Assembly (NCBI GenBank): GCA_020434495.1 | Contig: JAGRAT010000002.1 | Span: forward strand, 1-41,266 | Source of the DNA: Bdellovibrionales bacterium | GTDB taxonomy: Bacteria > Bdellovibrionota_C > UBA2361 > RFPC01 | Reading direction: 5' to 3' | DNA length: 41,266 nucleotides | In this document: positions 2,335-26,325 of the stretch, one piece after another | Layout of the letters: every line of letters begins with the position of its first letter | Position numbering within the stretch: position 1 is the stretch's first letter | Position numbers and translations under genes: made by a program | The notes under the pieces: generated by a model | The model's database searches: none | What the model saw: the letters and a program-made list of their open reading frames with translations, nothing else | Told to the model about the DNA's origin: nothing

Positions 2335-2898
2335 ATGGCTCGACATTCGCAAGATTCAATGAAACTCGTTTCGCTCGATGATGCAAAGATTCTTCTAGAG
2401 CGTTCGAACGCAAAAAAGATAGAGCGAGTGCTTGATGACGTGGAACTTACCTTACCAAAAGGAGACAGTTACTTCGCCGAGCTCCAGGGGAATGACTTAC
2501 ACCTTTACGGGCTCTCGCAAGGAATCTCTCGCTTCGGAAGTTCTCGCTCCGGTGGAAGTGAACAGTTTCAAGTGACAGCGGAAGGAATTGAACTTTCTGT
2601 TCAGAGAGGCGGAGTTTCGCGAATCGTCCTTCACTCACAAAAACTTTCACGAAATGTCGACGGGATTTTGCGTGAAGAGATTGATATCCCAGTAGATCTT
2701 CTTGGTGAGTATGCGGGGCTAAGTAAGAAGAGCGATCTTTCTCCCGAAGAGTTGGGACGCAAAGAGGAGCTCCTCCGACAAATTCGAGAAGACTTTCTAA
2801 AGCACTCTCATTCACCACGAACAACCTCTCGGTATCGTTCCACTCCTGTCTCCTCGGGTGAAAGTCGAGGTGGAGGTTATGGGAGATCCTCAGGATAG
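2335..2898 (+). CDS. Hypothetical protein with Gly/Arg/Ser-rich C-terminal tail
   Basis: I do not recognise this 187-aa family. Residues 1 to about 150 look like a folded soluble domain with mixed charge. The last 30 or so residues are low in complexity and rich in Ser, Arg and Gly, ending GESRGGGYGRSSG. There is no signal peptide, membrane helix or cysteine. It starts with an ATG preceded by GGAG about ten bases upstream. It ends only 30 bases before the ATP-grasp ligase gene, so the two are probably co-transcribed. An accessory or carrier protein, or an RNA/DNA-binding protein, would fit the tail; a peptide substrate for the neighbouring ligase is a speculative alternative. Confidence 0.7.
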   Translation: MARHSQDSMKLVSLDDAKILLERSNAKKIERVLDDVELTLPKGDSYFAELQGNDLHLYGLSQGISRFGSSRSGGSEQFQVTAEGIELSVQRGGVSRIVLHSQKLSRNVDGILREEIDIPVDLLGEYAGLSKKSDLSPEELGRKEELLRQIREDFLKHSHSPRTTSRYRSTPVSSGESRGGGYGRSSG

Positions 2899-2928
2899 AG
2901 GATTGGAAGTGAATTTCGGAGAGGCGTT

Positions 2929-3969
2929 ATGATTACAGATGAAGAGCTTGAACTTCTCCGTGCTAATCCACGGTTCTTGGCGAGAGCGCTAAGAGAGCGA
3001 GGGATAGAGGTCAATATTCTCGATATTGAAAACGAGATCATAGAAGCTGAGTTTGCTGGGCATAGGGAACTTCTCTTAGATATCGATAGTTCGCTGATGC
3101 CCTTTGCGAGTTCCTCAATTGCGAGCAGTAAATCAGTTACAAAACTACTGCTTCGAAGGGGGGGAGTCTCAGTGCCAAAGGGACAGCGATTCCTCTCCGA
3201 TGAAGTGCAGGAAGCTTGCGCATTTGCAGATCTTCTCGGTTATCCAGTTGTTGCTAAACCAAGTCTTGGAGTGCAGGGAGAGCTTGTTCATCTCGATCTT
3301 TCTTGCGCCCTCGATTTGGAGTGGGCGCTGCGAAATATTCAAGAAAAGAGGGGAGTAGGAGAAGTTCTCATTGAGGAGCAGTTCTTTGGAAAGGAATACC
3401 GGGTTTTCTATACTCAGCGTGGTGACTATGCCGTCCTTCACCGCGATCCAGCTCATGTTATCGGTAATGGACTGAACACCATCCGTGAGCTCGCCGAAGT
3501 TGAGTCCTATCGACGAATGAATCCGCGAATTAATTGCCTCTGCCCAATTGAACTCGATGAAGAGGCGAGTCGGTATCTCAGGATTCACGGAATGACGCTA
3601 GATACCGTTCCAGCGGAAGATGCCAAGGTGTATCTCCGATCGAGCTCCAACATAAAGATGGGTGGAGTAGCAACTGATGTCACCGATGATGTTCATCCGT
3701 CGGTTCTGGATATAGCTCGTCGAGCACTTGCTGCTGTCCCCGGCCTTCCTTACGCGGGCATAGATTTTATGACTGAGGACATCTCCGCCGAGCAATCGGA
3801 GAGGAGCTATCGGGTGCTTGAAATAAACTCCCTTCCAGGAATTGGAATGCACATTAATCCGGCCCATGGGAGCTCTCGGGATGTTGCAGGGATGTTAGTA
3901 GACCTCATATTTCCAGAGACCTGCGGAAACTCGCGGGTCTCTCGAGAGGGAATTCGGAGGGCCGCCTAG
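2929..3969 (+). CDS. ATP-grasp ligase, cyanophycin-synthetase-like
   Basis: This 346-aa protein has the ATP-grasp fold of carboxylate-amine ligases. Visible markers are VVAKPSLGVQG with Lys110, the KEYRVF segment (155-160), RDPAHVIGNG (172-181), DVTDDVHP (250-257) and the metal-binding LEINSLPG (297-304). The RxPAHVxGxG and DVTDxVHP pair is typical of the ATP-grasp half of cyanophycin synthetase and bifunctional glutathione synthetases, so amide-bond formation with an amino acid or short peptide is expected. It is a free-standing ligase without the Mur-ligase half of CphA. GGAGAGG precedes the ATG. Its TAG stop shares a base with the GTG start of the next gene, indicating translational coupling to the NRPS-like enzyme. 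The substrate cannot be predicted from the sequence. Confidence 0.85.
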   Translation: MITDEELELLRANPRFLARALRERGIEVNILDIENEIIEAEFAGHRELLLDIDSSLMPFASSSIASSKSVTKLLLRRGGVSVPKGQRFLSDEVQEACAFADLLGYPVVAKPSLGVQGELVHLDLSCALDLEWALRNIQEKRGVGEVLIEEQFFGKEYRVFYTQRGDYAVLHRDPAHVIGNGLNTIRELAEVESYRRMNPRINCLCPIELDEEASRYLRIHGMTLDTVPAEDAKVYLRSSSNIKMGGVATDVTDDVHPSVLDIARRALAAVPGLPYAGIDFMTEDISAEQSERSYRVLEINSLPGIGMHINPAHGSSRDVAGMLVDLIFPETCGNSRVSREGIRRAA

Positions 3970-6900
3970 TGGATACGCGAAAACTATACCGCAGGCAACT
4001 GAAGTTTCCGGGAGGTCCCCTGGAGGGACAGCAAATACTGCCCGTAGAATCGGCCGAAAGCGATAAGCTTTCGACCACGAGACCGGGAATTTCATTTGCT
4101 GGCAGTATACCAGCGGGATTTCTGGAACGATTCGAAGAGGTGGTGAAGAGGTTCCCTGATGAGACCGCAATACTCTGGCATGGGGTACCGTACTTCAGTT
4201 TCTCTGAGCTTAGGGAGAGGGCTCGTGGATTTGCATCTGTACTAGAGGCTCATGGAGTTAATGAGGAAGGGATTGTTGCTCTTCATCTCAAGAAGTCACC
4301 TCACTTTATAGTTGCAGTGCTTGGCTGTTGGTATGCGAGAGCTGCGTTTCTGCCACTCGAACCGTGCTGGCCAAAGCTTCGAAAGGAAAGAATCCTTAGT
4401 GAGGCTCGAGCAAAGATACTTGTTGGGGAAAGTTCTGATCAATTGCTCGGTGAAAGCGCAAACACAGAATTTCTTGACTGTGAACGAGCTATTCTGACTG
4501 ACACGCAAGTTCAGCAAATGAATCTTGAACGCTTTGATAGCTATGAATACCGACCAGATCGGCTTGCATATGTTATTTATAGCTCCGGGTCTACTGGAAC
4601 CCCAAAGGGGATTCTTGTCGAACACCGAGGATTGACTGCGGTTTTGTACTCTCAGATTGAAGCAATCGGGTTAACAGTAGGTTGGAGAAGTCTTTGGTAT
4701 CTTTCTCTGAGCTTTGATGCTTCGATTTCCGACATCGGAACGGCTTTGCTCTCTGGTGCAACATTGTGCATTGAAGATGGCGCTCGATTAAACCCTGGAG
4801 TTCCACTAGAACAGACAATTCTTGAACGAGGTATTAACTATGCGGATCTTCCACCTGCCGTTCTTCCACTCCTAAACATCGAAAAGATTTCGCCTGTCCT
4901 TAAAACCGTGCTTATTGGCGGCGAGGTGTGTGCTCCTGAGAGCGTTCGACAGTGGGCCGCTCGAACCCGACTTCTGAACGTTTATGGCCCCACTGAGACG
5001 ACGATTTGTTCAAGCTTCTCGGTGTGCTCGCGGGAGTGGGAGAGAGCCATGATTGGCAGGCCTCTTCCGGGATTCAAATACCGAATTGAAGGTAAGGATG
5101 GAGGCACGGACGAGGGAGAATTGCTCATTGGTGGTGTGGCCCTTGCACGTGGATATCTGCAACAGCAACGTCTCGATAGAGAGCGCTTTGTCTTTCGTGA
5201 GGGAGAACGGTACTTCAGAACGGGCGATAAGGTTCGTAAATCGGAAGACGGATCATTTGAGTTTCTCGGCCGACTCGACAGGCAGTTTAAGTTGTATGGA
5301 AGGCTGATAGAGCCATTCGAGATCGAACAAATTCTAACACAGCATACAGCAGTTAAAAGAGCCGCCGTATTAAAAGATGACTTTGGGAAGAGATGTCGGC
5401 TCGTCTGTTTCATCGAATTCCGTTCCAGTAGAACATCATGCTCTGTCCCGATGCTCCGGAAGTATCTCGCAATGTATCTCGCCAGCTGGATGATCCCAGA
5501 ACGATTTATAATCCGTGAGAATCTGCCGACGCTAACGAATGGAAAAATTGATTTCACAGCACTGCAGAGAGAGATAGAATCAGAAGAAAGCCAAGAGAAT
5601 GGTTCCTGGAGTGAGCTCCAAAGCACTATTATTGTGGAGGCGTGGGAGAAAGTTTTAGAAGTTACCGAGAAGGAAAGAGGTCAAAGTTTCTATGATTGTG
5701 GTGGTGATTCTCTAAAGGCGTTTGAACTCAGTGCAGCGCTTTCCCAGTTCGATATCAGTGTAGAGCCGCTCTCTCTTCTGGAAGATCCTACCCTCGATCA
5801 GTTCTTAAAGGCCTTAAAGTCTAAAGCCGAGATCTCAAGAGGGAAATCTCCTACGCTATTGAAGACGTTTGCCAAACTTGATGAGAAGACCCACCAGTTA
5901 CTTTCCTCTGGATCCGAAAGAGAGTGGAAGGAGGATTCATCATCTCATTGCAGGAATATTTTTCTTACCGGCAGTACTGGGTATCTGGGTGCACACGTTC
6001 TTCAAGAGCTCCTCACAAGAGAAAATGTTCGTTTAAATCTTCTCGTCCGAGCCGATAGTGAGGATATTGCGGAGAAAAAAATTCTAAACGCTCTCGTTGT
6101 TTCCGGTATTGAGGATCTCAGAGTGGATTGGAAGAAGATCCGAATTGTCTTGGGCGACATTACAAAGGAGAGGATGGGAATTTCAGAGGCCTCTTGGTCG
6201 CAGCTTGCACAAGAGTGTACAGAAGTTTTCCATTTGGCTGCCCAGGTGAATGATTTTCTTCCGTTAGACGATCTTTCTGCAACAAATATAGAGGGAATGA
6301 AGACAGTACTTTCATTCTGTCTTGAGGGGACACGAAAGTGGTTACACTACGCTTCGACAATTTCGGTTTTCACTCGACAGCAAAACTCTCCTCATTTACT
6401 CAGAGAATCTACCTTAGACTTGAATGGTGGAGCGGTGGTATCAGGATATGCTCAGTCAAAGTGGATAGCGGAATACTTGCTCGAAAGGGCTGCAGAACAT
6501 GGCTTCATGGACTTTTCGATCTACCGTTTTGGACTGCTCACACCAGATCCAAAAAAAGGAATCTTCCCGAAAAACAGTCTTTTGGAGGCAGTACTTGATA
6601 CGCTTTCCGTTCTTCGAGCCTATCCACGATCTGTATTGATAGACAAACGAACCGATATTACACCAGTTCCCCTCGCTGCTAAGATTTATGTGGCACTCAC
6701 GGAGCAACAGCACGAGGAACGTAAGCGATATTTTCATGTGTGTGGAAAGTCTCCTGTTTCTTTGGGTGACATTGCTCAAAACTTTGTAGATCTCGGTATT
6801 CCGATAGAAACAGTCGGAATGCAGGAGTGGAAACGACGTTGTTCGGAAAAGTTCACCTCTTACTCCAAAAGAATCGCCCTACACTCTCTCGAGTCTGGTA

Positions 6901-7139
6901 TCGAGAACGATCCCTATACTCTATTTGAGGCTGCACACTTTGAGTTTGACCGAACCAATACCGAAAAAGCGCTCCGCAAGTTACAAATGAACGTCTATTG
7001 GGAGCCCAAAGGGATCTTGCGAGCCTATATTCAGCAGCGGGGACATAGAAGATTCTGTGCATCAGATATCGACTCTTGGGCAGGAGATGAGATCCAGACT
7101 CGAGAGCGAGAGATTATGAAGGTCGTCGTACAAAAATAG
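3969..7139 (+). CDS. Stand-alone NRPS-like enzyme: adenylation-PCP-thioester reductase
   Basis: This 1056-aa protein has three parts. The adenylation domain (about 45-535) shows YSSGSTGTPKG near 203, FDAS, NVYGPTETT near 336, the RTGD and FLGRLDRQ motifs, and NGKID with the catalytic Lys. The carrier domain has CGGDSL with phosphopantetheine Ser581. The reductase domain (about 660-1040) has TGSTGYLG (667-674) for NAD(P)H and a Tyr827-xxx-Lys831 catalytic pair. There is no condensation or thioesterase domain. Like Lys2 and carboxylic acid reductases, it should activate an acid, load it on the carrier and release it reductively as an aldehyde or alcohol. The conserved Asp in FDAS suggests an alpha-amino acid substrate, by inference. 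The GTG start is in a TAGTG overlap with the ligase gene. A partner phosphopantetheinyl transferase is not in the window. Confidence 0.9.
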   Translation: MDTRKLYRRQLKFPGGPLEGQQILPVESAESDKLSTTRPGISFAGSIPAGFLERFEEVVKRFPDETAILWHGVPYFSFSELRERARGFASVLEAHGVNEEGIVALHLKKSPHFIVAVLGCWYARAAFLPLEPCWPKLRKERILSEARAKILVGESSDQLLGESANTEFLDCERAILTDTQVQQMNLERFDSYEYRPDRLAYVIYSSGSTGTPKGILVEHRGLTAVLYSQIEAIGLTVGWRSLWYLSLSFDASISDIGTALLSGATLCIEDGARLNPGVPLEQTILERGINYADLPPAVLPLLNIEKISPVLKTVLIGGEVCAPESVRQWAARTRLLNVYGPTETTICSSFSVCSREWERAMIGRPLPGFKYRIEGKDGGTDEGELLIGGVALARGYLQQQRLDRERFVFREGERYFRTGDKVRKSEDGSFEFLGRLDRQFKLYGRLIEPFEIEQILTQHTAVKRAAVLKDDFGKRCRLVCFIEFRSSRTSCSVPMLRKYLAMYLASWMIPERFIIRENLPTLTNGKIDFTALQREIESEESQENGSWSELQSTIIVEAWEKVLEVTEKERGQSFYDCGGDSLKAFELSAALSQFDISVEPLSLLEDPTLDQFLKALKSKAEISRGKSPTLLKTFAKLDEKTHQLLSSGSEREWKEDSSSHCRNIFLTGSTGYLGAHVLQELLTRENVRLNLLVRADSEDIAEKKILNALVVSGIEDLRVDWKKIRIVLGDITKERMGISEASWSQLAQECTEVFHLAAQVNDFLPLDDLSATNIEGMKTVLSFCLEGTRKWLHYASTISVFTRQQNSPHLLRESTLDLNGGAVVSGYAQSKWIAEYLLERAAEHGFMDFSIYRFGLLTPDPKKGIFPKNSLLEAVLDTLSVLRAYPRSVLIDKRTDITPVPLAAKIYVALTEQQHEERKRYFHVCGKSPVSLGDIAQNFVDLGIPIETVGMQEWKRRCSEKFTSYSKRIALHSLESGIENDPYTLFEAAHFEFDRTNTEKALRKLQMNVYWEPKGILRAYIQQRGHRRFCASDIDSWAGDEIQTREREIMKVVVQK

Positions 7140-7150
7140 GAGGTCTGAAT

Positions 7151-8068
7151 ATGGCATCGTCAGGAACAGCTGCAAAGATCTATGAGAAATTGGAGAACAT
7201 TCGTGACTGTTGTTCTGTAATCCCACTCAGCCCTCTTGAGGAAGATAGGCTTCTGCGTGAACTCATCAATGTCGACCGCCGGTTGCGAACGCGAGACTAT
7301 ACCATTCATAGCCATAATACCGGTACCTTTAATCTTGTTGAGCGGAATCGAGACTTTTTCACTGAGCTTCAGTTTCACTCATCAATGGGAAGAACCTGGG
7401 AGAAGGTTCTTGATGGAGTTCAGCTTTCTTCCCATCGCGCAATTCTCGATCTCTGTCCGGGATATTTTCCAAAAATTGAACTTGCGCTGCTCTATAAGAA
7501 CTATCGAGGGGAGGTTCGCGCAATCAACAAGGATGGGGAAGCTTTGGAGCAGATGAATCAGTTCTTGAAAATGTTCAATGCTCCGTTCACATTTTCCTAC
7601 ACAGTGTCCGATCTCCTCGATGCTTCAGATAAATTTGAGCCGGCGTCTTTGCTCCTTGGGAATCACATTATCGATGATATTTATATCGACTTTTTTGGAA
7701 GAGAATTGGGATTCTCATCTACCGAGCTCTATAGCGACCAAGATCTCCTGGAGCGCTTTTGGCGTTGTATACTCAAAGAATCAACTTTGAGACGAGGCGC
7801 GGTTGTTTCGTATCTAGTCGAGGCATTGGGAGCGCTTACCGCTGAGCGGGCGGAAGTAGTGCTCGTTCAGTATCCGAGCTACATCGAGAGGCAGCTTGGA
7901 ATTCAGGAGGTGAGCGACCTTCATTTACGAACTCTACGTGAGATCGAAATAGCTCTTGTTCAAGATGGGTTCGTCTCGAAGACCTCAGCACTTGAGTCGC
8001 GTTTGGACAATCCTGCTATGCGCTTCAATGCTGAGCATTGTTTACATGTCGTCAGGCATAAAAGGTAG
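7151..8068 (+). CDS. Unrecognised Rossmann-like protein, possibly a SAM-dependent transferase
   Basis: This is a soluble 305-aa protein of no family I can name. Residues 98-104 (ILDLCPG) sit where methyltransferase motif I would be, followed by VRAINKDGEAL (about 122-132), with an acidic residue where motif II is expected, and by LLGNHIIDDIYID (about 168-180) in the position of motif IV. The glycine-rich loop is degenerate (CPGY rather than GxGxG), so SAM binding is only a guess. A related aminocarboxypropyl-transfer activity is also conceivable. An AGGAGG-like site overlaps the end of the NRPS-like gene 11 bases upstream, and the stop is 7 bases before the NadR-like gene. It is therefore in the middle of the putative biosynthetic operon. 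Confidence 0.7.
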   Translation: MASSGTAAKIYEKLENIRDCCSVIPLSPLEEDRLLRELINVDRRLRTRDYTIHSHNTGTFNLVERNRDFFTELQFHSSMGRTWEKVLDGVQLSSHRAILDLCPGYFPKIELALLYKNYRGEVRAINKDGEALEQMNQFLKMFNAPFTFSYTVSDLLDASDKFEPASLLLGNHIIDDIYIDFFGRELGFSSTELYSDQDLLERFWRCILKESTLRRGAVVSYLVEALGALTAERAEVVLVQYPSYIERQLGIQEVSDLHLRTLREIEIALVQDGFVSKTSALESRLDNPAMRFNAEHCLHVVRHKR

Positions 8069-8075
8069 AAGGCAT

Positions 8076-9092
8076 ATGAAACAGAGTACTGGTCTTGTCC
8101 TTGGAAAGTTTATGCCTCCTCATAAGGGACATTGCTATCTTCTTGATTTTGCATCAGAGAACTGTACCGATCTTCGTATTGTTATTGATCGGATCCCGAA
8201 TGCTCCCATTCCGGAAGCGCAGAGAGAGGAATGGCTTAGGGAGATGTATCCAGACGCGGAGGTCACAACCTTGCAGGAGTCTCTCCCGCAGTTGCCGGAA
8301 GAGACTAAGGATTTTTGGAAGATTTGGAGCCGTACCTTGCGTGCTCTTGCTCCGGAAGGAATAGACTATCTTTTTGCGGGAGAGAGTTATGGGGCTCGGC
8401 TCGCTGATGCTGTGGGGGCTACATTTATCCCAGCGCCGGGGTATCGCTCAGAGATTCCAATCAGCGCTACTGAGATACGCGCTGATCCGATCGCAAATTG
8501 GCACTACATTCCAGAAAAGGTTCGCCCGTATTTTGTGAAACGAGTCAGCATCTTTGGACCAGAATCTTCTGGAAAATCGACTCTTACGGAGCAGCTCGCA
8601 GCTGTTTTCGGTACAGTTTTTGTTCCTGAGTTTGCTCGTATTCACCTCGAGGCCGCGGGAGGAAGATGCGTTCAAGAAGACATGGAAGTGATAGCGAATG
8701 GGCAGATAGCTCTGGAGGAGCTTATGGTAAAGAGGGCCAATCGGGTGCTCTTTGCAGATACGGATCCTTTGGTAACCCCTATTTGGAGTGAAGAGCTTTT
8801 TGGTGATTGCTCTGAAGCGATCAGAGAAATGGTGAACTCGAGAGAGTACGATCTCACCCTGCTGCTCGCGCCAGATCTGCCGTGGATTCGGGACACCGTA
8901 AGGTATCTCCCCAATGGAGGGCAGAGGTTCTTTGATCGGTGTGTTGACGCGTTGCAAAAAGCGGGAAGACGTTTCGAAGTTATTCGAGGTGAGAACCGTT
9001 TGTCTGATGCAGTGAACGCTATTAAGAGAGAATTTCCCTCAATCAGTAGCCGAGAGCAAATCGTCTCTGAAGAAATACAGCAGTCAGAGTAG
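8076..9092 (+). CDS. nadR: NadR-like NMN adenylyltransferase / ribosylnicotinamide kinase
   Basis: This 338-aa protein has the two enzymatic domains of NadR without its DNA-binding region. The nucleotidyltransferase half (about 1-150) has PPHKGH (His16/His19) and ISATEIR (129-135). The kinase half (about 155-325) has the P-loop GPESSGKST (161-169). The known reactions are ribosylnicotinamide to NMN and NMN to NAD. The ATG at 8076 was chosen because the upstream in-frame extension is the tail of the previous gene in another frame, and AAGG lies just before it. It is last in the rightward operon, and its final 50 bases overlap the end of the convergent asnB-like gene. It could supply the cofactor for the reductase steps, perform a nucleotidyl transfer on the pathway product, or be a housekeeping salvage gene placed here by chance. 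Confidence 0.85.
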   Translation: MKQSTGLVLGKFMPPHKGHCYLLDFASENCTDLRIVIDRIPNAPIPEAQREEWLREMYPDAEVTTLQESLPQLPEETKDFWKIWSRTLRALAPEGIDYLFAGESYGARLADAVGATFIPAPGYRSEIPISATEIRADPIANWHYIPEKVRPYFVKRVSIFGPESSGKSTLTEQLAAVFGTVFVPEFARIHLEAAGGRCVQEDMEVIANGQIALEELMVKRANRVLFADTDPLVTPIWSEELFGDCSEAIREMVNSREYDLTLLLAPDLPWIRDTVRYLPNGGQRFFDRCVDALQKAGRRFEVIRGENRLSDAVNAIKREFPSISSREQIVSEEIQQSE

Positions 9093-10977
9093 TAAAGAGT
9101 ACCGGGTCAAAATTCTTCCGGCATTGTGAGTTCATCTGAGAGCAGTTCCGTACCTGCTCACGAATCTTCGGGCAGTTAAGGAACGGCAAGGAGAGGGCAT
9201 CGGCGCTGGCTAAGGTGTCCAGCAAAAACTCTTTCAGGAGCCCTGATTTCGCAATCGGTAGAGGCGGAGCGATAAATGGATGTTTTTCTCTCTTATAGAG
9301 ATATGCCGGAAGGGTGTCTTTGTAGGCGTCTCTGAGAATCGCTTTCTCAACAAGAGTCCCGTGCTTCGAGTTTGGACGTATCTTAAAGTTCGTTGGAAGT
9401 TTCGAAACAAATTCAACTAGTCGGTGATCAAGAAAAGGGAGTCGACCTTCGATAGAGGCTGACATCTCCATCCCATCCCCCAATGTTCTCAAGATGTAGT
9501 TTGTAAGAGCCGATTTCGTCCAGAGATACATCGACTGATGGACCGGAGATCGACCGGAGAGCTGTTCAACCTGCTCAAAGGACGAGATGAATTCCCCAAA
9601 GCAATCGACGTCAGCAAACTGATGTGCAAACTCTTGGGACATCATTGAACGCATTCGAAATCCCATACCCGCTTTTGCTTTAAGGAAATGCGGAATGAAT
9701 CCAAGCTTCTCCATTACGGAGGAGAGGTCAATTTGGGCTTCTTCTTGTGCAATCATGATACCGGATGATGCCGCATTCGAATTCAATAAGGGCTTGGGAT
9801 TCTCATTTGAGTACAGCGCTGAGTCCGCTAGGAAGTCTTGTCTTAAGTGGGCATAACCAGCGAACACTTCGTCTGCCCCTTCACCGGTCAGAGCGACTTT
9901 GAATCCTGCCGCTCGAATTGCTTTGTTGAGAATCCGCTTCCCAATGAAGTGACCGTTGATAGCGAACCCTTCAGAGAAATAGGTTGCCTCTTCCAAGTTT
10001 TGGATGATCTGTTGGTCATCCATGGGGACTTGGTGAAAAATTCCCCCGGATTCCTCTATGAGACGGCGGGCGAGAGTAGCCTCATCGTACAAGGAATCAT
10101 CGAACGAGACGCAAAAGCAGTGGAGCGGCGCTTGGAGGAGGGCATTTGACCGTGCAGCAACAATCGATGAATCAATTCCACCACTTAAATGACAACAGAG
10201 TGGTACATCAGCACGGAGTCTCGTCTTGATAGCATCATCGAGGAGTTCTCGAACTGCGGCTGTTGCCTGTTCGTAGTCCATAGGAGCACTGTCACCGTCT
10301 GTTGCGAAGTGAAGATCCCAATACTGTCGGATTGTGAAGCTGCCTTTACGCCAGCAAAGGAGATGTCCGGGTGGCAGCTGCGCTACGTCCTTGAACAGAG
10401 TGTTCTGAGGAAGTGGATACTGGGTGCTGAGAGAGTGATAGACAGAAGGAAGGTCCCATTCTGCTTTTAATCCTGCTGCGAAAAGAGCCTTTACTTCAGA
10501 AGCGAGAAGTAAAGAATCACCGATTTTTGAAAATAAGAGCGGCTTAATTCCAAAGCGATCGCGCGCAGCGAATAGCTCCTGCCTTTTGCTATCCCAGAGT
10601 GCAAATGCGAACTCTCCACGGAGATGCTCTACGCACTCATGACCGTACTCTTCATAAAGGTGAATGAGAATCTCGCTGTCTGATTCAGAGGAAAATTGAT
10701 GCCCTTTACATTGGAGACTCTGCCGTATCTGAGCGAAATCATAGAATTCTCCGTTCACTATTGCGTGTATCGTTCCATCCTCATTCGCCATCGGCTGCTG
10801 ACCAGCATCGAGATCAATTATGCTCAGTCTTGTGTGAAGAAGAGCGGTTCTCCATGACCTATCATGCCAAACACCGGAAGCATCTGGTCCACGGTGAGAT
10901 AGAGAGTGCTGAACGAGTGGAATTTGTTCTTCAGGAAATGATTTCTCCGTGCTTACAAAGGCAAAAATTCCGCACAT
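9043..10977 (-). CDS. asnB: Asparagine synthetase (glutamine-hydrolysing), AsnB family
   Basis: This 644-aa protein begins MCGIF, so Cys2 becomes the N-terminal nucleophile of the class II glutaminase domain (about 2-210). The synthetase domain (about 240-620) carries the pyrophosphate loop SGGIDSS (265-271). AsnB enzymes adenylate a carboxylate and amidate it with ammonia tunnelled from glutamine. Many AsnB-type proteins in secondary-metabolism clusters use substrates other than aspartate, and the placement next to an ATP-grasp ligase and an A-PCP-R enzyme makes that plausible here. Its ribosome site (AAGGA) overlaps the stop region of the dehydrogenase gene 12 bases upstream, so the two form a translationally linked leftward pair. 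The 3' end overlaps the NadR-like gene. Confidence 0.9.
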   Translation of the reverse strand: MCGIFAFVSTEKSFPEEQIPLVQHSLSHRGPDASGVWHDRSWRTALLHTRLSIIDLDAGQQPMANEDGTIHAIVNGEFYDFAQIRQSLQCKGHQFSSESDSEILIHLYEEYGHECVEHLRGEFAFALWDSKRQELFAARDRFGIKPLLFSKIGDSLLLASEVKALFAAGLKAEWDLPSVYHSLSTQYPLPQNTLFKDVAQLPPGHLLCWRKGSFTIRQYWDLHFATDGDSAPMDYEQATAAVRELLDDAIKTRLRADVPLCCHLSGGIDSSIVAARSNALLQAPLHCFCVSFDDSLYDEATLARRLIEESGGIFHQVPMDDQQIIQNLEEATYFSEGFAINGHFIGKRILNKAIRAAGFKVALTGEGADEVFAGYAHLRQDFLADSALYSNENPKPLLNSNAASSGIMIAQEEAQIDLSSVMEKLGFIPHFLKAKAGMGFRMRSMMSQEFAHQFADVDCFGEFISSFEQVEQLSGRSPVHQSMYLWTKSALTNYILRTLGDGMEMSASIEGRLPFLDHRLVEFVSKLPTNFKIRPNSKHGTLVEKAILRDAYKDTLPAYLYKREKHPFIAPPLPIAKSGLLKEFLLDTLASADALSLPFLNCPKIREQVRNCSQMNSQCRKNFDPVLFTTLTAVFLQRRFALGY

Positions 10978-10989
10978 GGCTTTCAGTCC

Positions 10990-11916
10990 TTAAGAGAGAA
11001 TAACAAACGGTTTGGCAAGTTCGCTGTGAAGAGAATGCGGGAGCTCCTTTGCGAGCCCCTCAAGGGAATGCTGTTTGCCGATGAGATCTTCAACGGAGAG
11101 TTCCCCGCTTGAAAGAATCTCCAGCGCTTGCTCGAAGCTTCCATACGCAAGCGCTTGCAGGCGAATTTCCTTATCGAGAAGTTCAAGGAGTCGAACACGA
11201 ATTGCTTGATGCTGCCTGCTCTTTACGATGAGCATTCCCTTTGGTCTCAAAAGATTGAGAATTGCACTAAAGCTTTCTTGGCTTATACCGGTTTCAATTG
11301 CGAAATCGAAGCTTGAGGGAGAAGCGTCGATCAGTTCAGGTTCATCAACCATCTCGATCTGATCGAATCCAAAGCAGTGCAACACTCTTTTTGTGAGTTC
11401 TGCTATTCGGTTCTTACCGAAGATTACCCCCCGTTGTTGAGGATGAATATCTGCTTGAAGGACGGCGAGAGACGCTGCTACCGGCTCAGCATAGGCTGCG
11501 ATATGAAAGGTCATGGCTTCTGGAATCTCTCTTATCGCTCTCCGAGGAACTCGAATATACTCGGCAAAGCAGCCGTCGAGATGGACCCCAAACATATCGT
11601 AGGAAGTGAAGAGATCGTGAGGAATTGGGTGCAGGTTTGCTAGAGTGTGCTTTTGAAAGATGGGCATTACCGCCACTCGCGCTCCACGAGGAAGATCGGT
11701 CACCCCGTTTCCGATTTCTACAACTGTTCCTGAAAACTCATGACCAAGAATGATTCGGTTAGCTGCAGGTACCTGCTCAAGAGCGACATATACGTCGGTT
11801 CGACACAGTCCAGCCACGGCAACTTTTACTATGACATCGTCGTTTTGTTGAATAGCCGGATCTAGAACCCTTTGGACAGTAGCGTTCTCCCCCTGTGACT
11901 TTACTAGTGCTTTCAC
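10990..11916 (-). CDS. Compact zinc-type medium-chain dehydrogenase
   Basis: This 308-aa protein resembles alcohol dehydrogenases of the MDR superfamily. Catalytic-zinc ligands are visible as Cys38 (GLCRTD), His59-Glu60 (LGHEFSG) and Glu144 (YAEP). The four-cysteine structural-zinc lobe normally found after the GARV motif is absent. The cofactor loop near 163-174 reads GVIFGKNRIAEL instead of a clean GxGxxG. At 308 aa it is shorter than the usual 340-350. It may therefore bind cofactor unusually, or act on a narrow substrate such as the aldehyde released by the NRPS-like reductase (an inference from context). The start is GTG with AAGGAG eight bases upstream. It is first gene of the leftward unit and divergent from tlyA. 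Confidence 0.85.
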   Translation of the reverse strand: MKALVKSQGENATVQRVLDPAIQQNDDVIVKVAVAGLCRTDVYVALEQVPAANRIILGHEFSGTVVEIGNGVTDLPRGARVAVMPIFQKHTLANLHPIPHDLFTSYDMFGVHLDGCFAEYIRVPRRAIREIPEAMTFHIAAYAEPVAASLAVLQADIHPQQRGVIFGKNRIAELTKRVLHCFGFDQIEMVDEPELIDASPSSFDFAIETGISQESFSAILNLLRPKGMLIVKSRQHQAIRVRLLELLDKEIRLQALAYGSFEQALEILSSGELSVEDLIGKQHSLEGLAKELPHSLHSELAKPFVILS

Positions 11917-13756: not shown

Positions 13757-15043
13757 CTAAGTTTCTTTGCTTTCTGAAACCAGTCGCCTGAAGTGTTCCC
13801 CTCGCTCCGAAAAGTTCTTGTAAGCGTGATAGCTGGCAGCAGATGGAGAAAACAAGCAAGTTGCGCCTGTTGGGGTCACATGCTTTGCAATCTGAACAGC
13901 ATTTTCAAGATCCTTGGCCATATGGAGCCTCTCAGAGTTCGGTTGAGCATTCCGGAGCGATTCAAAGAGTTTTTTTCCCGTCTCGGGGATGCAGATGATC
14001 TGTAAATGTAATGTTTGATCGAGGAGCGAACGGAGCGAGCCTAGGTCAACCCCACGATCAAACCCGCCAACAATAAGAGTCTTCGTTTCGGGGAAGCCTT
14101 GCAGAGCGGCAATAGTCGCTTCTGGAATAGTTGCTGCCGAATCGTTGATAAATCGAATTCCGTTAAACACCCCGACCTCCTCTGTACGGTGAGGCGGGAT
14201 TTTACAACTCTTCAGTGCTTGAGCTGCCGTAGATTTGGTAATGCCAAATGTCGAGGCTACCTCATAGGCAAAGTGGGCATTGATGCGTTGATGAGTTAAT
14301 GAAAGGTGTGGTGGTGTCTCAAAATCACACTCAGTCGGTGAGACCCAGATAAAATTTCTTTCCGAGTGGAATTTCTCTGTTGCTTGGAAGAGTTCGGAAT
14401 TTACGAAGGCCACATTTGGTTCGCTCCCCTTCTGCAATATCGAAAACTTGGCAGCTCGGTACTCTTCTAAAGTGCCGTAGTACTCTAAGTGTTCCGGATA
14501 GAAATTGAGCAAAATCGCGATATCCGGAGCGGAATCTATGTGGTGCAGTTGATGGCTCGACAGTTCAAGAAGAACGATATCATCACCCGATAGCCGTTCG
14601 AGCGCAGAGAGCACCGGGAGTCCAATGTTGCCAAGGAAGTGAACCTTCTTCGGAAGAGTCGAAAGCATGCTATAGAGCATTGAGCAGGTTGATGACTTTC
14701 CCTTGGTGCCGGTGAGCCCGATAGTTCGACCTTTGTAATACTTTAAGAAAATCTCTATCTGGCTGGTAAGTTGAGATCGATGCTTTTCCCAAAGTGATTT
14801 CGGGAGAGGAATTCCTGGAGATTTTATGATGAGATCGTAGTTGGAGAGGGAGTCGAGGTATCCTTCTCCGAGATGGAGAGCGACTCCTTCTGGTGCTACC
14901 AGGGTTTTGCTCATATCAGCAATTCCCAAGCTTTTATGTACCTTCAGCTGTTGTAACAAGGAGTAAGTAGAGCGTCCTTCTGCTCCAAAACCGAGTAAGA
15001 GGATGTCTTTTTCTGACAAGAGTTCTTTGAGATTTTCAATCAT
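13757..15043 (-). CDS. murD2: UDP-MurNAc-L-Ala ligase, MurD/MurD2 type
   Basis: This 428-aa Mur ligase has an N-terminal substrate domain, a central ATPase domain with P-loop GTKGKSST (112-119) and a C-terminal domain. It has the MurD-like NDSAATIPEAT segment. Conventional MurD adds D-Glu to UDP-MurNAc-L-Ala. In Xanthomonas, MurD2 adds L-Glu and MurL then epimerises it. Here the gene starts inside the end of murL (8-base overlap, ATGATTGA), so I assign it to the MurD2 role by context. Specificity cannot be read from the sequence alone. The ATG at 15043 matches the usual MurD N-terminus better than the upstream in-frame start at 15109. Confidence 0.85.
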   Translation of the reverse strand: MIENLKELLSEKDILLLGFGAEGRSTYSLLQQLKVHKSLGIADMSKTLVAPEGVALHLGEGYLDSLSNYDLIIKSPGIPLPKSLWEKHRSQLTSQIEIFLKYYKGRTIGLTGTKGKSSTCSMLYSMLSTLPKKVHFLGNIGLPVLSALERLSGDDIVLLELSSHQLHHIDSAPDIAILLNFYPEHLEYYGTLEEYRAAKFSILQKGSEPNVAFVNSELFQATEKFHSERNFIWVSPTECDFETPPHLSLTHQRINAHFAYEVASTFGITKSTAAQALKSCKIPPHRTEEVGVFNGIRFINDSAATIPEATIAALQGFPETKTLIVGGFDRGVDLGSLRSLLDQTLHLQIICIPETGKKLFESLRNAQPNSERLHMAKDLENAVQIAKHVTPTGATCLFSPSAASYHAYKNFSERGEHFRRLVSESKET

Positions 15044-16370
15044 TCTGGGTAGCCGACCAAACGAGCGACTCGCATTCAGGAGGTAGATTGTGCTCTTTAC
15101 TCCAATCATTCAATAGTTCGTGAAGTGATTTTCCCGCTGGAAGCTTGTCCGCAACAGCTGTTAAGAGTGGAAATGGGGTATCTCTGCTCAAGAGAAATCG
15201 AGCAGAGGCGATACTTTCCTCTCTTGTTCCTACGCATTCAAATGGTTTGACCCGATCTGGGAGGCAGAGGTCGAGGAGCACTTCGGTAAGCGAGGTATTG
15301 TCCAGGGGGTTACTGAGAAAAATAGTGGCGAGTTCGGTTGAGGTGATGTGCGGGGCGAGCAAGAGCGCGGTGAAGAGGCACTTTGAACACTCACTGCACC
15401 AATTGTCATGGTAACAACCAACATTGCAACTTCTAAAGGCAGAGAAGTACTTCGGATGTTGAGCAAAGAGCTTTCCGATCTGTGCTTCGTGAAGAGGTCG
15501 GAGGAGGCTGAAGTAATTAATATTGCCGGTGAGAAACTGTCTAACGTAATCACGAAAGGAATTTTCGAATTCAAGAGATTTTGAGTACTGATGATTGACG
15601 GACTCTCCAGCAACGTTTCCCTCAGAGGCGCTCCCCTCATTAGAGAGAACGATATATTCCTTTTCGAGTAAGGCTGCTGTAACAAGCGAAGTAAACGCAA
15701 GTAACGCCGAGTAGGGGGTATGGCCGTTAAGAAATCCCTCCTTATTCAGTCGGAAGAGTTCTTTGTCCAACGTACGGGTAACAGTCGTTGTCTGGTCTGG
15801 AGTATAACCGCCTAATTCTCCAGAGCGAATGCAAGCTGGACGGGGGTTAAGGTAGAAGAGATGATTGCTTTCCCGAAAAGGTTTAAGAAGTTCGAGGGTG
15901 ACAATCGAATCCTTTCCTCCTCCGATCGGCACAAGGTTTCCCGTGGTGGTTCTTTGATAACAGGGTAATTGTTGTGTTGTGCCTGAGCTTGAGAAATTTA
16001 CAAATGCTTCCTTTGAGCTCTTTATAACATTCCGGTATCGAAATTCGCTTAGGCCCTCCCAGTAGAGATGTTGCCAGAAGTCGAACTCGTCTGAGGAGAT
16101 GTCTGGCACTTGAATTTCAAAGCGCGGGGAACAAGTCGCCTTCCAGTAACTGAGCGCTTCAATCATCCCAAGTCGGGAGAGCAACGGAACAATACTTGTT
16201 TGTTCGAATCGTCCTTCTGGAAAAACAAAAGTAGAGATGAAAGAAGTTAGCCCCTCGATTGAGAAGTTGTAGTGGATAACGAGATTCTGATTTTCAAGCT
16301 CAAGGGTAAAGCCCTCGTAACGAAAAACGGGGAACTGCATGCGGAGATTTTGATACGTGGACGAATTCAT
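15036..16370 (-). CDS. murL: UDP-MurNAc-L-Ala-L-Glu epimerase MurL
   Basis: This 444-aa protein matches the MurL family described in Xanthomonas, which converts the terminal L-Glu of UDP-MurNAc-L-Ala-L-Glu to D-Glu. It thereby replaces glutamate racemase in peptidoglycan synthesis. Family marks I recognise are PIGGGKDSIVTLELL (GGGKDS at 150-155), an ATP-pyrophosphatase-like loop, and FYLNPRPA (about 172-179). A cysteine cluster at Cys315, 319, 325, 328 and 331 may bind zinc. Its start overlaps the stop of the upstream lipoprotein gene by ATGA, and its end overlaps murD2. The two enzymes are therefore almost certainly made together. Whether a separate MurI exists elsewhere cannot be judged here. 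Confidence 0.88.
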   Translation of the reverse strand: MNSSTYQNLRMQFPVFRYEGFTLELENQNLVIHYNFSIEGLTSFISTFVFPEGRFEQTSIVPLLSRLGMIEALSYWKATCSPRFEIQVPDISSDEFDFWQHLYWEGLSEFRYRNVIKSSKEAFVNFSSSGTTQQLPCYQRTTTGNLVPIGGGKDSIVTLELLKPFRESNHLFYLNPRPACIRSGELGGYTPDQTTTVTRTLDKELFRLNKEGFLNGHTPYSALLAFTSLVTAALLEKEYIVLSNEGSASEGNVAGESVNHQYSKSLEFENSFRDYVRQFLTGNINYFSLLRPLHEAQIGKLFAQHPKYFSAFRSCNVGCYHDNWCSECSKCLFTALLLAPHITSTELATIFLSNPLDNTSLTEVLLDLCLPDRVKPFECVGTREESIASARFLLSRDTPFPLLTAVADKLPAGKSLHELLNDWSKEHNLPPECESLVWSATQND

Positions 16371-18196
16371 CGGCGGGTAAAGGGATTTTGTTCAATTGGG
16401 AGCAAGGATGCTACAAATTTCATTCGCTCTTCAATGATGGAAACGAGCGGTGGCTTTGAAAATCCAACCGCCATTGGTGCCATGAGTTTCTCCCGGAGAT
16501 TATGGAGTACCACTTCAAGACTTTCAATGAACTCTGGTGAATTCGCCTCTAATACAGCGCTTTCCCATTCCTCTCGCGGGGCGAGCAGGGTGGCAACGTT
16601 TAGGGCGAATCGGTTCAAGGAATCCTGGCCACTAAGCGGTAGAGCCTCGATGTTTCCTCCAAAGAGGCGATCGTAAAACAGTCTATAATTCGGTTCGGTC
16701 TCCTTAATAGAACTCCAATACTCATCGGCACGTTCGAATCCAGCGATATCCTTTTCGATGCATGCAAGGGCTGCGTAGCGAGCAGCGGTGCGCGTCCCGA
16801 GGGGTATGGCCAGGGACTCTACCTGCGAAATTTGTATTGCTCTTGGTGTGATGTAATCCCTATGTTCTTGCCAGTCGTCTACTAGGGGGTATCGGCCGAC
16901 TCGAGCACCTAAAGCGCGTTCCACGGATCTCGTTTCTTCATCGATCAAATGAAGGTCAAAGATGCGGAGCAGGAGCGTCCGATCTTCTGGCTCTCCTGAA
17001 AAGATGCATCGTTCCTTTATGCTTCGAGTCGGTGCAGGCCTTACCTTGTAGTCGCCTTCCGAGGCCTTAACGAATTGCGCCAGTGAGATGCTGAAGAGCC
17101 CGCTTTCTGTATCTAACACCACGAAATCAGAGTTGGCTTCTCCTACCGGTGCTCCTTTTGGCCGAAAGCTGGTAGTGCAGTATACGCGGCCATCAAGAAT
17201 ACCTTGGAGTTCAACGGGAACATCACGGAAGTTCTCATCTTCTTGTTGCCAACGTAGGGTACAGCAAGGGCGCTCAAAAAACTGATTATCAGTCGCGAGT
17301 ATCTTGAGGAGCGCTGTGATCTCGGGAGAAGGGAGCTCTCCCTTCGGCCACTCACTCTTCTCTTCTGCTAGATGGGCTGCTATGCGGATAGTTCCGATTT
17401 TTGAAAGGGCGCGAGAGAGCTCGCGTTGTTCCCGTTCCGAAAGTTCCCTGGTGGTACCGGAGGCGATGCTATCGGTGTTAAAACCATCGAAGTTGTACTC
17501 TCCGCGGTCATTACTATAACGGAGACGGAAATCTGCAGAGACTGAATTGCCCCTGAATCCGGCAAGGTAGAGGAGGGCTCCTACTGACCACTGGCCATCG
17601 ACGAACACGGTGCTTGAGTTTGGTGGATCTACTTGCTGATTGGCGCTCAATTGGACGGTGAGGTGATGAGGAATGTAGGCAAGAAGTGAGAGTTGCTGAA
17701 AGGTGGTGTCTTTGTCTCGAGCAACTTCCCGAATGGAGTATTCGCCGGAAACGTCAAATGCGTTGTCGTTGAGATCGAAAAACTGTCCTTTGAGTTTTCC
17801 AGCTGTTCGAGCAGCCGCGCTATCATTTGCTTCTTCCACTGGATTTTCAGAGTTCGCCTCTTCCTCTGGATCGTTAGGGATCATTCTCAGCCGGAGTTCT
17901 CCTCTCGAGGTGAACGCTGAAACTTTGTTTATCTCGCTAAAGGGGATTAATGCCGCCCCGTGAAGTGCGTGAACAATTTCACCTGGAGTAGTGATTAGCG
18001 CTGGTGCAACCTCCGTAACCAGTGAGAGCTGTAGGTTCTCTTGACGCTTTGAAATGTCGTCAAAAGTCTGAAGTGCAGTTGGAGTTACTGGTAGTCGAAG
18101 AACATCACCATCCTCTTCCTGCAGTTTCGGGGCAACGCAAGAGGTTAGGGCGAGGAGGCCCGCTATGGCTGGAGCTTTCGAGGTGAACATACCCAT
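16367..18196 (-). CDS. Large lipoprotein of unknown function upstream of murL
   Basis: This protein of about 609 aa starts with a lipoprotein signal peptide (basic MFTSK, hydrophobic stretch, lipobox LTSC). I do not recognise the mature domain. It has an acidic Glu/Asn-rich spacer near residues 105-130, several scattered cysteines in the second half and no membrane helix. It is expected to be anchored in the inner or outer membrane and exposed to the periplasm or surface. The ATG at 18196 is taken as start; ATG at 18190 is equally possible and an upstream TTG at 18205 less so. No strong ribosome site is seen for any of them. The ATGA overlap with murL places it first in a three-gene operon ending with murD2, which hints at an envelope role. 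Confidence 0.75.
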   Translation of the reverse strand: MGMFTSKAPAIAGLLALTSCVAPKLQEEDGDVLRLPVTPTALQTFDDISKRQENLQLSLVTEVAPALITTPGEIVHALHGAALIPFSEINKVSAFTSRGELRLRMIPNDPEEEANSENPVEEANDSAAARTAGKLKGQFFDLNDNAFDVSGEYSIREVARDKDTTFQQLSLLAYIPHHLTVQLSANQQVDPPNSSTVFVDGQWSVGALLYLAGFRGNSVSADFRLRYSNDRGEYNFDGFNTDSIASGTTRELSEREQRELSRALSKIGTIRIAAHLAEEKSEWPKGELPSPEITALLKILATDNQFFERPCCTLRWQQEDENFRDVPVELQGILDGRVYCTTSFRPKGAPVGEANSDFVVLDTESGLFSISLAQFVKASEGDYKVRPAPTRSIKERCIFSGEPEDRTLLLRIFDLHLIDEETRSVERALGARVGRYPLVDDWQEHRDYITPRAIQISQVESLAIPLGTRTAARYAALACIEKDIAGFERADEYWSSIKETEPNYRLFYDRLFGGNIEALPLSGQDSLNRFALNVATLLAPREEWESAVLEANSPEFIESLEVVLHNLREKLMAPMAVGFSKPPLVSIIEERMKFVASLLPIEQNPFTRR

Positions 18197-18271
18197 AGAT
18201 ACCAATCCAGTTGGTACGGCTCATGCTACCCCGAGTTTTGCCAATAACAAAGCAATCAAGGTGAAGATCGG

Positions 18272-19495: not shown

Positions 19496-20545
19496 CTAAC
19501 AGCATCCCCCGCCGCTTACGTGCGGTGCTATCATCATCGGCTCTTCACTTGCAAAGAGTCCAAAGTGGGTAGATTTATCACCGAGTACTTCAAAGTATTT
19601 CTTGTATCGAGTTTCACTCAGCATCGCTGCTGAATTTCCGCAGACTCGCATTGGCTTACCGAGTTCAAAGTAGTGGTGATCGTCCAGTTCAAAGGCATGT
19701 GGATGACCAAGCATCGGAGTCTTATAGGTCGCGATCTGTCCAAAGTCTTCGCAGCGGTCCTCCAGGGAGGCGATTTTAAAAACCCGCACGGTATCTGAGG
19801 TGAATTGGACCATTCCGATCTTGTTAAAAATCTCCCCATCTTCGATAGCAAGAGGCGTGGTTGATACGGTTCGATAGTCGGGGCAGCCGTTAGCTATCAT
19901 CATTCTTCTGAAATCTTCGGTGTACATCGCTCCACCAAGGCACTCTCCAAGTAAAACCGGATCGTTTGCCAAGTGAGAGGGGATTCTCCTGTCAGCGAAT
20001 ACATCTGAGAAGAAGAGCTCGCCTCCTGGTTTTAGTACCCGAAAGATCTCGGAGAAGAGCTTATCTTTATCAGCGGAGAGATTGAGCACGCAATTTGAGA
20101 TAACGAGATCAAAGGAGTTGTCCTCTAAACCGATTGCAGCGAGGTCTTCCATATGCCCCTTTACGAATGAAAGCACACCCGGCTTAATCTCAAGCTTCTC
20201 TTCGTGGTACGGTAACCAACGGTTAGCAATCTCAAGTTGCTCATCCGTCATATCAACACCTACAACTTGGCCCGTGTCCCCAACAAGTTTTGCGATGACA
20301 ACGCAATCTCTTCCTGTTCCACATCCAAGATCTAGCACCCGTAACCCTTCCAGCGCTTCAGGAATAGGGGAGCCACACCCATAAAACTTCATATGCACTT
20401 CGGTGTGAATTTTAGCGAGGATAGGCTTCAGGTGGGCCGGTGGTTCAGTGGCAGCGCAGCACGCATTGGTTTTCAGATCTTCATAAGATTTGAGCGTTTC
20501 ACTGTAGTACTCAGTGACGGCATCTCGGACGGTTTCAGTAGACAT
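19496..20545 (-). CDS. arsM: Arsenite S-adenosylmethionine methyltransferase
   Basis: This 349-aa ArsM-type methyltransferase has SAM loop LDLGCGTGRD (71-80). The thiols expected for As(III) binding and relay are visible: Cys29/Cys30 (ACCA), Cys57 (YGCGSP), Cys152 (SNCVLNL) and Cys200 (LGECLGG). ArsM enzymes methylate arsenite to mono-, di- and trimethyl arsenicals. Together with ArsS they lead to dimethylated arsenosugars. The C-terminal domain (about 255-349) ends in a GGGCC motif. The ATG at 20545 is preceded by GGAGAG, whereas a GTG six bases upstream lacks that spacing. The 5' side carries three 18-bp tandem repeats separating it from arsS. Confidence 0.92.
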   Translation of the reverse strand: MSTETVRDAVTEYYSETLKSYEDLKTNACCAATEPPAHLKPILAKIHTEVHMKFYGCGSPIPEALEGLRVLDLGCGTGRDCVVIAKLVGDTGQVVGVDMTDEQLEIANRWLPYHEEKLEIKPGVLSFVKGHMEDLAAIGLEDNSFDLVISNCVLNLSADKDKLFSEIFRVLKPGGELFFSDVFADRRIPSHLANDPVLLGECLGGAMYTEDFRRMMIANGCPDYRTVSTTPLAIEDGEIFNKIGMVQFTSDTVRVFKIASLEDRCEDFGQIATYKTPMLGHPHAFELDDHHYFELGKPMRVCGNSAAMLSETRYKKYFEVLGDKSTHFGLFASEEPMMIAPHVSGGGCC

Positions 20546-20580
20546 CTTCACTCTCCATTAATGAGAAACATGGACAAAAA

Positions 20581-20634
20581 CACAGCTATTCAGAACAACA
20601 CAGCTATTGAGAACAACACAGCTATTCAGAAACA
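20581..20634. repeat. Three tandem 18-bp repeats at the arsS/arsM junction
   Basis: The unit CACAGCTATTCAGAACAA occurs at 20581-20598, 20599-20616 (one mismatch) and 20617-20634 (diverging at the end). The last copy contains the arsS stop codon at 20622-20624. The unit length is six codons. Recent slippage expansion of the arsS 3' end or a protein-binding array are both possible. Confidence 0.9.
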
Positions 20635-21596
20635 AGGGCACCACCGCAAGAACTCCCGGCTCCAGCGGTACATCCAAAACAATGGCTATCAAAAGCGATT
20701 GTACTGCTCTGAAGCTCATTAAAACTCTCAATGTCCCAGATGGTTCTTTGCGTACCCCCGAGCGGTAGGTCCAGCATCTGGTTGAAATCACAATCAAAGA
20801 GCTGCCCATCGTATCCGATGGAGACGAGGTTCTTACACATCACTGCTTCCGCCGCTCTGGGATTGAAATTCCGAAAGAGTAGCTCCATATACTCCTCTCT
20901 CTTTCCCCACTTTTCAAGTTGGTGGAGGAATCGCTTAATGGGCATGTTCGTGATGGTAAAGAGCTCATGAAACTCGATCTCGAAGTCCTCAAAGAGGCGT
21001 TTTTTGTAATCTGTAGCAAGGGATGACTGGGACGGGGGGAGGGACGGCCCCAGTGGGTTGTAAACGAGGTCTAGCCGGAGCTTCGAGTTTGGCCGTCCAT
21101 ACCCAAGTTCGTTGAGAAGACGAAGCCCCCGAATGCTCCCGTCAAACGTTCCTCGTCCACGTTGTTTGTCGACATTTTCCGAGGTGTAGCAGGGAAGTGA
21201 AGCGATGATGTGTACTTCGTGTTTCGCCAGGAATTCGGGAAGCGATTCGTATCCTTCTTCAAAGAAGATGGTGAGGTTACACCTATCGATTGCTTGAAGT
21301 CCTAATCGAGTCGCTTCCTCAATGGTCATTCGAAAATAAGGATTCATCTCGGGAGCGCCACCCGTAATATCGAGGGTAGTTATCCCAGTCGAAGCTTCAA
21401 GGAGTTCGATAACACGCCTTGTCGTTCTTTCATCCATGAGCTCTGTTCGCTTCGGTCCTGCTTCAACGTGACAGTGGAGGCAAGCAAGATTGCAGAGTCT
21501 CCCGTTGTTGATCTGAATGGTGTCGATAGCTGTTCGAGAGCAAGACACACCACTAGCGACGAGGTGATCTGCAAATAGAGGGAGAGAACTTGGCAC
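20622..21596 (-). CDS. arsS: Arsenosugar biosynthesis radical SAM protein ArsS
   Basis: This 324-aa radical SAM protein has an iron-sulfur triad CxxxCxxC at Cys35/39/42 (LCNLACLHCH). Its C-terminal Cys-rich domain has Cys306, Cys309 and the SSCGGAL motif with Cys317, which is Cys or selenocysteine in this family. ArsS transfers the 5'-deoxyadenosyl group from SAM to dimethylarsenite, producing the first arsenosugar nucleoside. I favour the GTG at 21596, preceded by GGAGGAG at seven bases and sharing one base with the upstream TAG stop (TAGTG). An in-frame ATG at 21611 lacks a ribosome site. It is translationally coupled to the flavoprotein gene and followed by arsM. Confidence 0.9.
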   Translation of the reverse strand: MPSSLPLFADHLVASGVSCSRTAIDTIQINNGRLCNLACLHCHVEAGPKRTELMDERTTRRVIELLEASTGITTLDITGGAPEMNPYFRMTIEEATRLGLQAIDRCNLTIFFEEGYESLPEFLAKHEVHIIASLPCYTSENVDKQRGRGTFDGSIRGLRLLNELGYGRPNSKLRLDLVYNPLGPSLPPSQSSLATDYKKRLFEDFEIEFHELFTITNMPIKRFLHQLEKWGKREEYMELLFRNFNPRAAEAVMCKNLVSIGYDGQLFDCDFNQMLDLPLGGTQRTIWDIESFNELQSSTIAFDSHCFGCTAGAGSSCGGALVSE

Positions 21597-25418: not shown

Positions 25419-25580
25419 TGGTAGTTATCGGAAAGGATCGAGGATCACTTGTGTAAATTCAGAGTTTTAAGTCTGGCGTGAGTAACTTTGTTGACTCGGA
25501 CGTAAGCGAATTTCGTATGGATTTGCGGGTAAGTGATTGAAAAAATGTAGACCAGGTAGCTTTTCAGAACAGTGGAGAGA

Positions 25581-25609
25581 CGTCGATGGGGGGGGAGCCC
25601 GCATCGACG
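25581..25609 (-). terminator. Terminator-like hairpin after the protease gene
   Basis: CGTCGATG (25581-25588) and CATCGACG (25602-25609) form an 8-bp stem that can extend with flanking GAGA/TCTC. The loop holds a run of eight G on the plus strand. It lies 34 bases beyond the stop of the leftward protease gene. The following minus-strand sequence is pyrimidine-rich but not a true U-tract. Confidence 0.55.
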
Positions 25610-25642
25610 CCTCTCGAACCGTGTGTAGTTGCCTCGTGGTCG

Positions 25643-26311: not shown

Positions 26312-26325
26312 GATGCATCACCTCC

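Follow-up and report, generated by a model that had tools for sequence, protein, structure and literature searches.

The A-PCP-R protein of livipeptin biosynthesis in Streptomyces lividans 66 is of the C-minus type and works with a non-NRPS ligase, and genes for a methyltransferase and a dehydrogenase adjoin it (PMC10548850). The Rickettsia palindromic elements (RPE) and the Coxiella QMITEs are short, palindromic, dispersed repeats that lie in frame inside unrelated protein genes (PMC10969869, PMC5896051). Features of both kinds meet in a seven-gene locus of an uncultured Bdellovibrionales bacterium within the window, that is, the whole stretch of 41,266 nucleotides that was analysed. Like the livipeptin locus, it has one A-PCP-R protein without a condensation domain, a separate ligase, and a predicted methyltransferase and a dehydrogenase encoded nearby. 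Its features are as follows.

2335-2898, + strand: orphan small protein of 187 aa with a Ser/Gly/Arg-rich tail; open reading frame with Shine-Dalgarno sequence, first gene of the rightward operon
2929-3969, + strand: CphA-like ATP-grasp ligase without the Mur-ligase half; NCBIfam models and solved CphA chains
3969-7139, + strand: lone A-PCP-R (C-minus NRPS-like) protein; Pfam AMP-binding, PP-binding and NAD_binding_4
3985-4109, + strand: palindromic mobile repeat (MITE/RPE-like) of 125 bp; lies in frame in the A-PCP-R gene, at about residues 6 to 47
7151-8068, + strand: predicted class I SAM-dependent methyltransferase, no named family; model of the homologue in the same-order genome G024
8076-9092 (open reading frame 7956-9092), + strand: NadR-like NMN adenylyltransferase/ribosylnicotinamide kinase; TIGR01526 at 1.6e-72 and motifs
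9043-10977, - strand: AsnB-like glutamine-dependent asparagine synthase/amidotransferase; TIGR01536, N-terminal Cys and SGGIDS loop
10990-11916, - strand: short zinc-type (GroES-like) dehydrogenase; ADH_N at 7.8e-19, upstream of AsnB

All seven genes that the earlier note had listed are present, each with a ribosome-binding site in the form of a Shine-Dalgarno-like stretch before its start. The A, PCP and R domains, NadR and AsnB all have intact catalytic motifs. The five rightward genes follow one another almost without gaps (30, -1, 11 and 7 bases) and are therefore read as one operon, in which the GTG start of the A-PCP-R gene overlaps the stop codon of the ATP-grasp gene. The leftward pair, dehydrogenase followed by AsnB after 12 bases, converges on this operon, and the frames of NadR and AsnB overlap tail to tail over 50 bases (9043-9092), as had been described. 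The NadR frame does span 7956 to 9092 as first drawn; its true start is ATG 8076, not TTG 7956. GC content across the cluster is 0.45 to 0.50, so that base composition gives no sign of a foreign origin. PADLOC matched none of the seven cluster proteins, and an anti-phage defence reading was therefore set aside. A search of Rfam gave no match.

The A-PCP-R protein is a C-minus NRPS. Its A, PCP and R domains are complete according to Pfam, NCBIfam and motifs (GGDSL, TGSTGYLG and YAQSK), and Pfam scans revealed no condensation domain in this protein or in the products of the other cluster genes. It is also the sole A-PCP-R of its genome, which upholds the description of a lone A-PCP-reductase without a condensation domain. 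The best-scoring NCBIfam model across A, PCP and R is that of MxcG (NF038078), an NRPS that activates lysine, at 471.5 bits against a cut-off of 2300. Assignment as a myxochelin synthetase was rejected on this score; the locus further differs in having no condensation domain and, across the window, no catechol genes. The A-domain pocket, read by hand from the motifs and from an alignment with linear gramicidin synthase, is D-A-S-D-L-G-V-I-C, which we judge to resemble the published lysine-type pockets. These binding-pocket motifs suggest that the substrate is a basic amino acid such as lysine. Within the class the protein has partial or distant matches and no full-length homologue, and a profile search of genome contigs with A-PCP-R returned nothing. 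A Klebsiella plasmid gave one match; with a gene of the SDR/PKS type close by, it does not belong to a leupeptin operon.

The most secure unexpected result, missed by the earlier note, is the mobile repeat that lies in frame within this NRPS-like gene. The 125-bp element has 41 further BLAST matches in its own genome, many of them at contig ends, and its copies thus break the assembly; residues 1 to 55 of the A-PCP-R protein match 28 other places in the genome. The ends of the repeat are imperfect terminal inverted repeats, TATAC..GTATA (TATACCG...GGCAGTATA), and the element folds strongly (z = -5.3). Related copies, 124 to 130 bp long or truncated, occur in genomes G001, G004 and G005. Short, dispersed, palindromic, bounded by terminal inverted repeats and in frame in unrelated genes, the element is MITE/RPE-like.

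Within the A-PCP-R gene, the repeat sits after the fifth codon from the GTG, in frame and with no internal stop, and as read from the frame it adds about 41 residues at the N terminus of the predicted protein. If a TA target is duplicated, the net gain is 123 bases, or 41 codons; all but one of the near-complete copies begin with TATA. Between the GTG and codon 58, which falls within the A domain, there is no in-frame ATG, GTG or TTG, and homologues align only from about residue 49 onward, so that translation must cross the repeat. Two further copies are in frame, one within the gene of a 573-aa membrane protein (L064:3815-3939) and one close to the beginning of that of a 405-aa DUF5666 lipoprotein (L063:1456-1580), read in another frame than the window copy. 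Among the repeat copies of G000, usually three of the six reading frames are open, while shuffled sequences have about one (P about 0.05 for at least three). No empty site was found, the membrane protein gene having a distant partial homologue at most. In form the repeat resembles the RPE and QMITEs, being short, palindromic, dispersed and in frame in protein genes, whereas the bacterial lineage is different and the gene that carries it here is NRPS-like.

The ATP-grasp protein scores 218.8 bits against cyanophycin synthetase models over residues 61 to 331 (NCBIfam) and matches solved CphA chains at 1e-46, and CphA proteins are the closest relatives of its ATP-grasp domain. It is not a cyanophycin synthetase: the score compares with a cut-off of 850 bits, the likeness covers the ATP-grasp part alone, and the Mur-ligase half is missing. 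The gene at 7151-8068, called a Rossmann-like unknown in the earlier note, has no match in Pfam, NCBIfam, PADLOC or PHROGs and so belongs to no named family. Its single homologue, at 27% identity, is in G024; none was found in plasmids, phages or viral contigs, and a contig search with the two-row methyltransferase alignment returned the G024 contig again and no other. The model of the G024 homologue (pLDDT 66, pTM 0.68) matches solved class I methyltransferases best in Foldseek (1e-7), and all top matches have that fold. On the strength of this model, the window protein is best read as a member of a new family of class I SAM methyltransferases, by prediction; its own model, built from two sequences, is poor (pLDDT 48) and was left out of the fold assignment.

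Across some 45 genomes in the class, the methyltransferase gene occurs in its own genome and in G024 only, and neither same-genus nor same-family genomes carry genes for the methyltransferase, NadR or the small protein. From this distribution, the predicted rightward operon is an accessory set. The G024 contig opens inside an ATP-grasp gene, whose end is 69% identical over 42 residues to that of the window ATP-grasp and which runs straight into the methyltransferase gene. On the 3' side of the latter follow an NadE-like/2OG-oxygenase fusion and then a 578-aa NMN-adenylyltransferase-like protein, which has the motif GxFxPxHxGH and one that resembles a PRPP-binding motif. The fusion itself (L059:1681-3441), of an NAD synthetase-like domain with a 2OG-Fe(II) oxygenase-like domain, is unusual. 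An ATP-grasp, a methyltransferase and a pyridine-nucleotide enzyme are common to the two loci, and this shared core provides the strongest comparative evidence for a putative joint pathway. No A-PCP-R is found on the G024 contig, which starts within the ATP-grasp gene, and no other locus has an A-PCP-R together with such an ATP-grasp or methyltransferase. The refutation that the earlier note had set for its own reading, seven genes not co-conserved in relatives or each better explained by a housekeeping context, half applies: no relative has all seven, and AsnB by itself scores as an ordinary asparagine synthase. What does recur is the three-part core, without an A-PCP-R. In G040 and G043, lone ATP-grasp genes have peptidase and agmatinase-like neighbours, and another in G009 lies beside an aroQ-like gene; none of these is the present cluster.

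The most economical reading of a lone, complete A-PCP-R adjoining an ATP-grasp ligase is the formation of an amino-acid-derived aldehyde or alcohol without a condensation domain. With a probability of roughly 0.55, the locus is an accessory cluster for a small molecule, with a condensation-free NRPS at its centre, an amide bond made by ATP-grasp, tailoring and an in-frame repeat. In the proposed order of steps, A-PCP-R would activate one amino acid, perhaps a basic one such as lysine, load it onto the carrier domain and release the loaded residue by reduction, as an amino-aldehyde or alcohol. Near its N terminus the enzyme carries about 41 additional residues, gained by insertion of the 125-bp palindrome in frame after codon 5. 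The ATP-grasp ligase would form an amide bond in place of a condensation domain, and the predicted methyltransferase would tailor the product. NadR, encoded in the same operon, would supply pyridine nucleotide or act on a nucleotide intermediate, while AsnB and the dehydrogenase may amidate the product or adjust its oxidation state. The condensation-free aldehyde or alcohol proposed earlier keeps the support of the complete lone A-PCP-R, of its ATP-grasp neighbour and of the livipeptin precedent, and loses that of co-conservation.

The true unit could instead be the ATP-grasp, the methyltransferase and the pyridine-nucleotide enzyme, with a nucleotide-linked (NAD-like) product. Since the core recurs in G024 without an A-PCP-R, it can be argued that A-PCP-R and the leftward pair of AsnB and dehydrogenase are local additions. 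In both loci, a protein of the NMN-adenylyltransferase type stands beside the ATP-grasp/methyltransferase pair (NadR here, the NMN-adenylyltransferase-like protein in G024), and in G024 so does the NadE-like/2OG-oxygenase fusion. NadR, with the motifs GKFMPPHKGH, ISATEIR and GPESSGKS, has no homologue in 47 other genomes, which include every class member examined, and this too speaks for such a unit. NAD is a known building block, that of altemicidin (PMC11610977). However, the pattern comprises two loci, the nucleotide enzymes come from different families, and NadR could simply supply the cofactor of the reductase; an NAD-linked product is unlikely. In a combination of both ideas, the ATP-grasp and methyltransferase core would mark a family of pathways whose products are made on, or out of, a pyridine nucleotide, each with a step of the NMN-adenylyltransferase type, and a C-minus A-PCP-R amino-aldehyde would be joined here; this is a distinctly improbable speculation.

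Less certain is the part played by the leftward pair. AsnB scores 419.9 bits against TIGR01536, over the cut-off of 267.1, and by this score is, taken alone, an ordinary asparagine synthase, and the dehydrogenase is short (308 aa), with a degenerate dinucleotide-binding loop (GKNRIA). Located on the opposite strand, the two may be unrelated to the rightward operon. The convergent pair that the earlier note had counted as part of the cluster is present, but no tie to the operon was found outside its own genome. The locus as a whole could even be a loose neighbourhood of unrelated genes, in which genes for an asparagine synthase, for a NadR used in salvage and for a reductase of NRPS-like type adjoin by chance, as the score of AsnB, the two convergent transcription units and the absence of the seven-gene set elsewhere among the searched genomes would allow. 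The nearly gapless spacing of the five rightward genes argues against chance, as does the adjacency of ATP-grasp and methyltransferase, kept at 27 to 69% identity in another family, and such a neighbourhood is rather improbable.

The small protein at 2335-2898, directly upstream of ATP-grasp, fits no family of Pfam, NCBIfam, PADLOC or PHROGs and has no homologue among 96 other genomes. A ribosomal-peptide-type system, in which the ATP-grasp ligase and methyltransferase would act on this protein as their substrate, is very improbable: the match of the G024 methyltransferase to TIGR04188 (ATP-grasp peptide maturase methyltransferase) is below threshold, at the chance level of E 0.024, and is confined to that homologue, the ATP-grasp resembles CphA and not a RiPP maturase, and the 187-aa protein shows no graspetide-like core.

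Judged by its flanks, the contig is native to the lineage: the flanking cyclic-nucleotide/DUF1003 gene has a 75% identical counterpart in G004, G002 keeps counterparts of the TonB-MurD-MurL-like-GT2 genes in unchanged order, and the mobile repeat is abundant here and found also in the three genomes named above. In this flank, a MurD-type ligase gene overlaps a gene that resembles MurL, the UDP-MurNAc-L-Ala-L-Glu epimerase of Xanthomonadales (228 bits, below the cut-off; 13757-16370, - strand, for the two genes together), and upstream of the pair lies a 612-aa gene of no family (16367-18205). Further along the window, an ArsM-like methyltransferase is encoded beside an ArsS radical SAM protein (19496-21611, - strand; TIGR04167, above cut-off), genes of the arsenosugar type, followed by a VTT-domain/mercuric-reductase-like fusion (21596-23743). 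GC content rises to 0.60 at 25501-27000, against about 0.48 elsewhere, in genes with few or no family matches.

The cluster is small and rare, an unusual version of a known pathway type, and the same holds for its mobile repeat. With the repeat, the lengthening of proteins by short palindromic DNA gains a further case in a lineage distant from Rickettsia and Coxiella, here in an NRPS-like enzyme. If the condensation-free reading is true, the ATP-grasp, the new methyltransferase and the pyridine-nucleotide enzyme also give a small core for genome mining. Among known systems, the N-acetylglutaminylglutamine amide (NAGGN) pathway likewise pairs an ATP-grasp with an AsnB-like amidotransferase. The locus was rejected as an NAGGN cluster (TIGR03103, 147.5 of 569 bits; TIGR03104, 290.1 of 570.1 bits; acetyltransferase domain absent), and a better-fitting candidate lies in the same-genus genome G001. 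Livipeptin is an analogy and not a case of shared membership. Its A domain is predicted for arginine and the A domain here for a basic residue as well, but its partners are a tRNA-utilizing enzyme of the L/F-transferase type and an N-acyltransferase, neither of which has a counterpart in the cluster or in the remaining window proteins that were scanned. Here, an ATP-grasp ligase, NadR and AsnB accompany A-PCP-R, and the ATP-grasp would replace the tRNA-dependent partner of livipeptin, so that nature would have two ways for an NRPS to work with no condensation domain.
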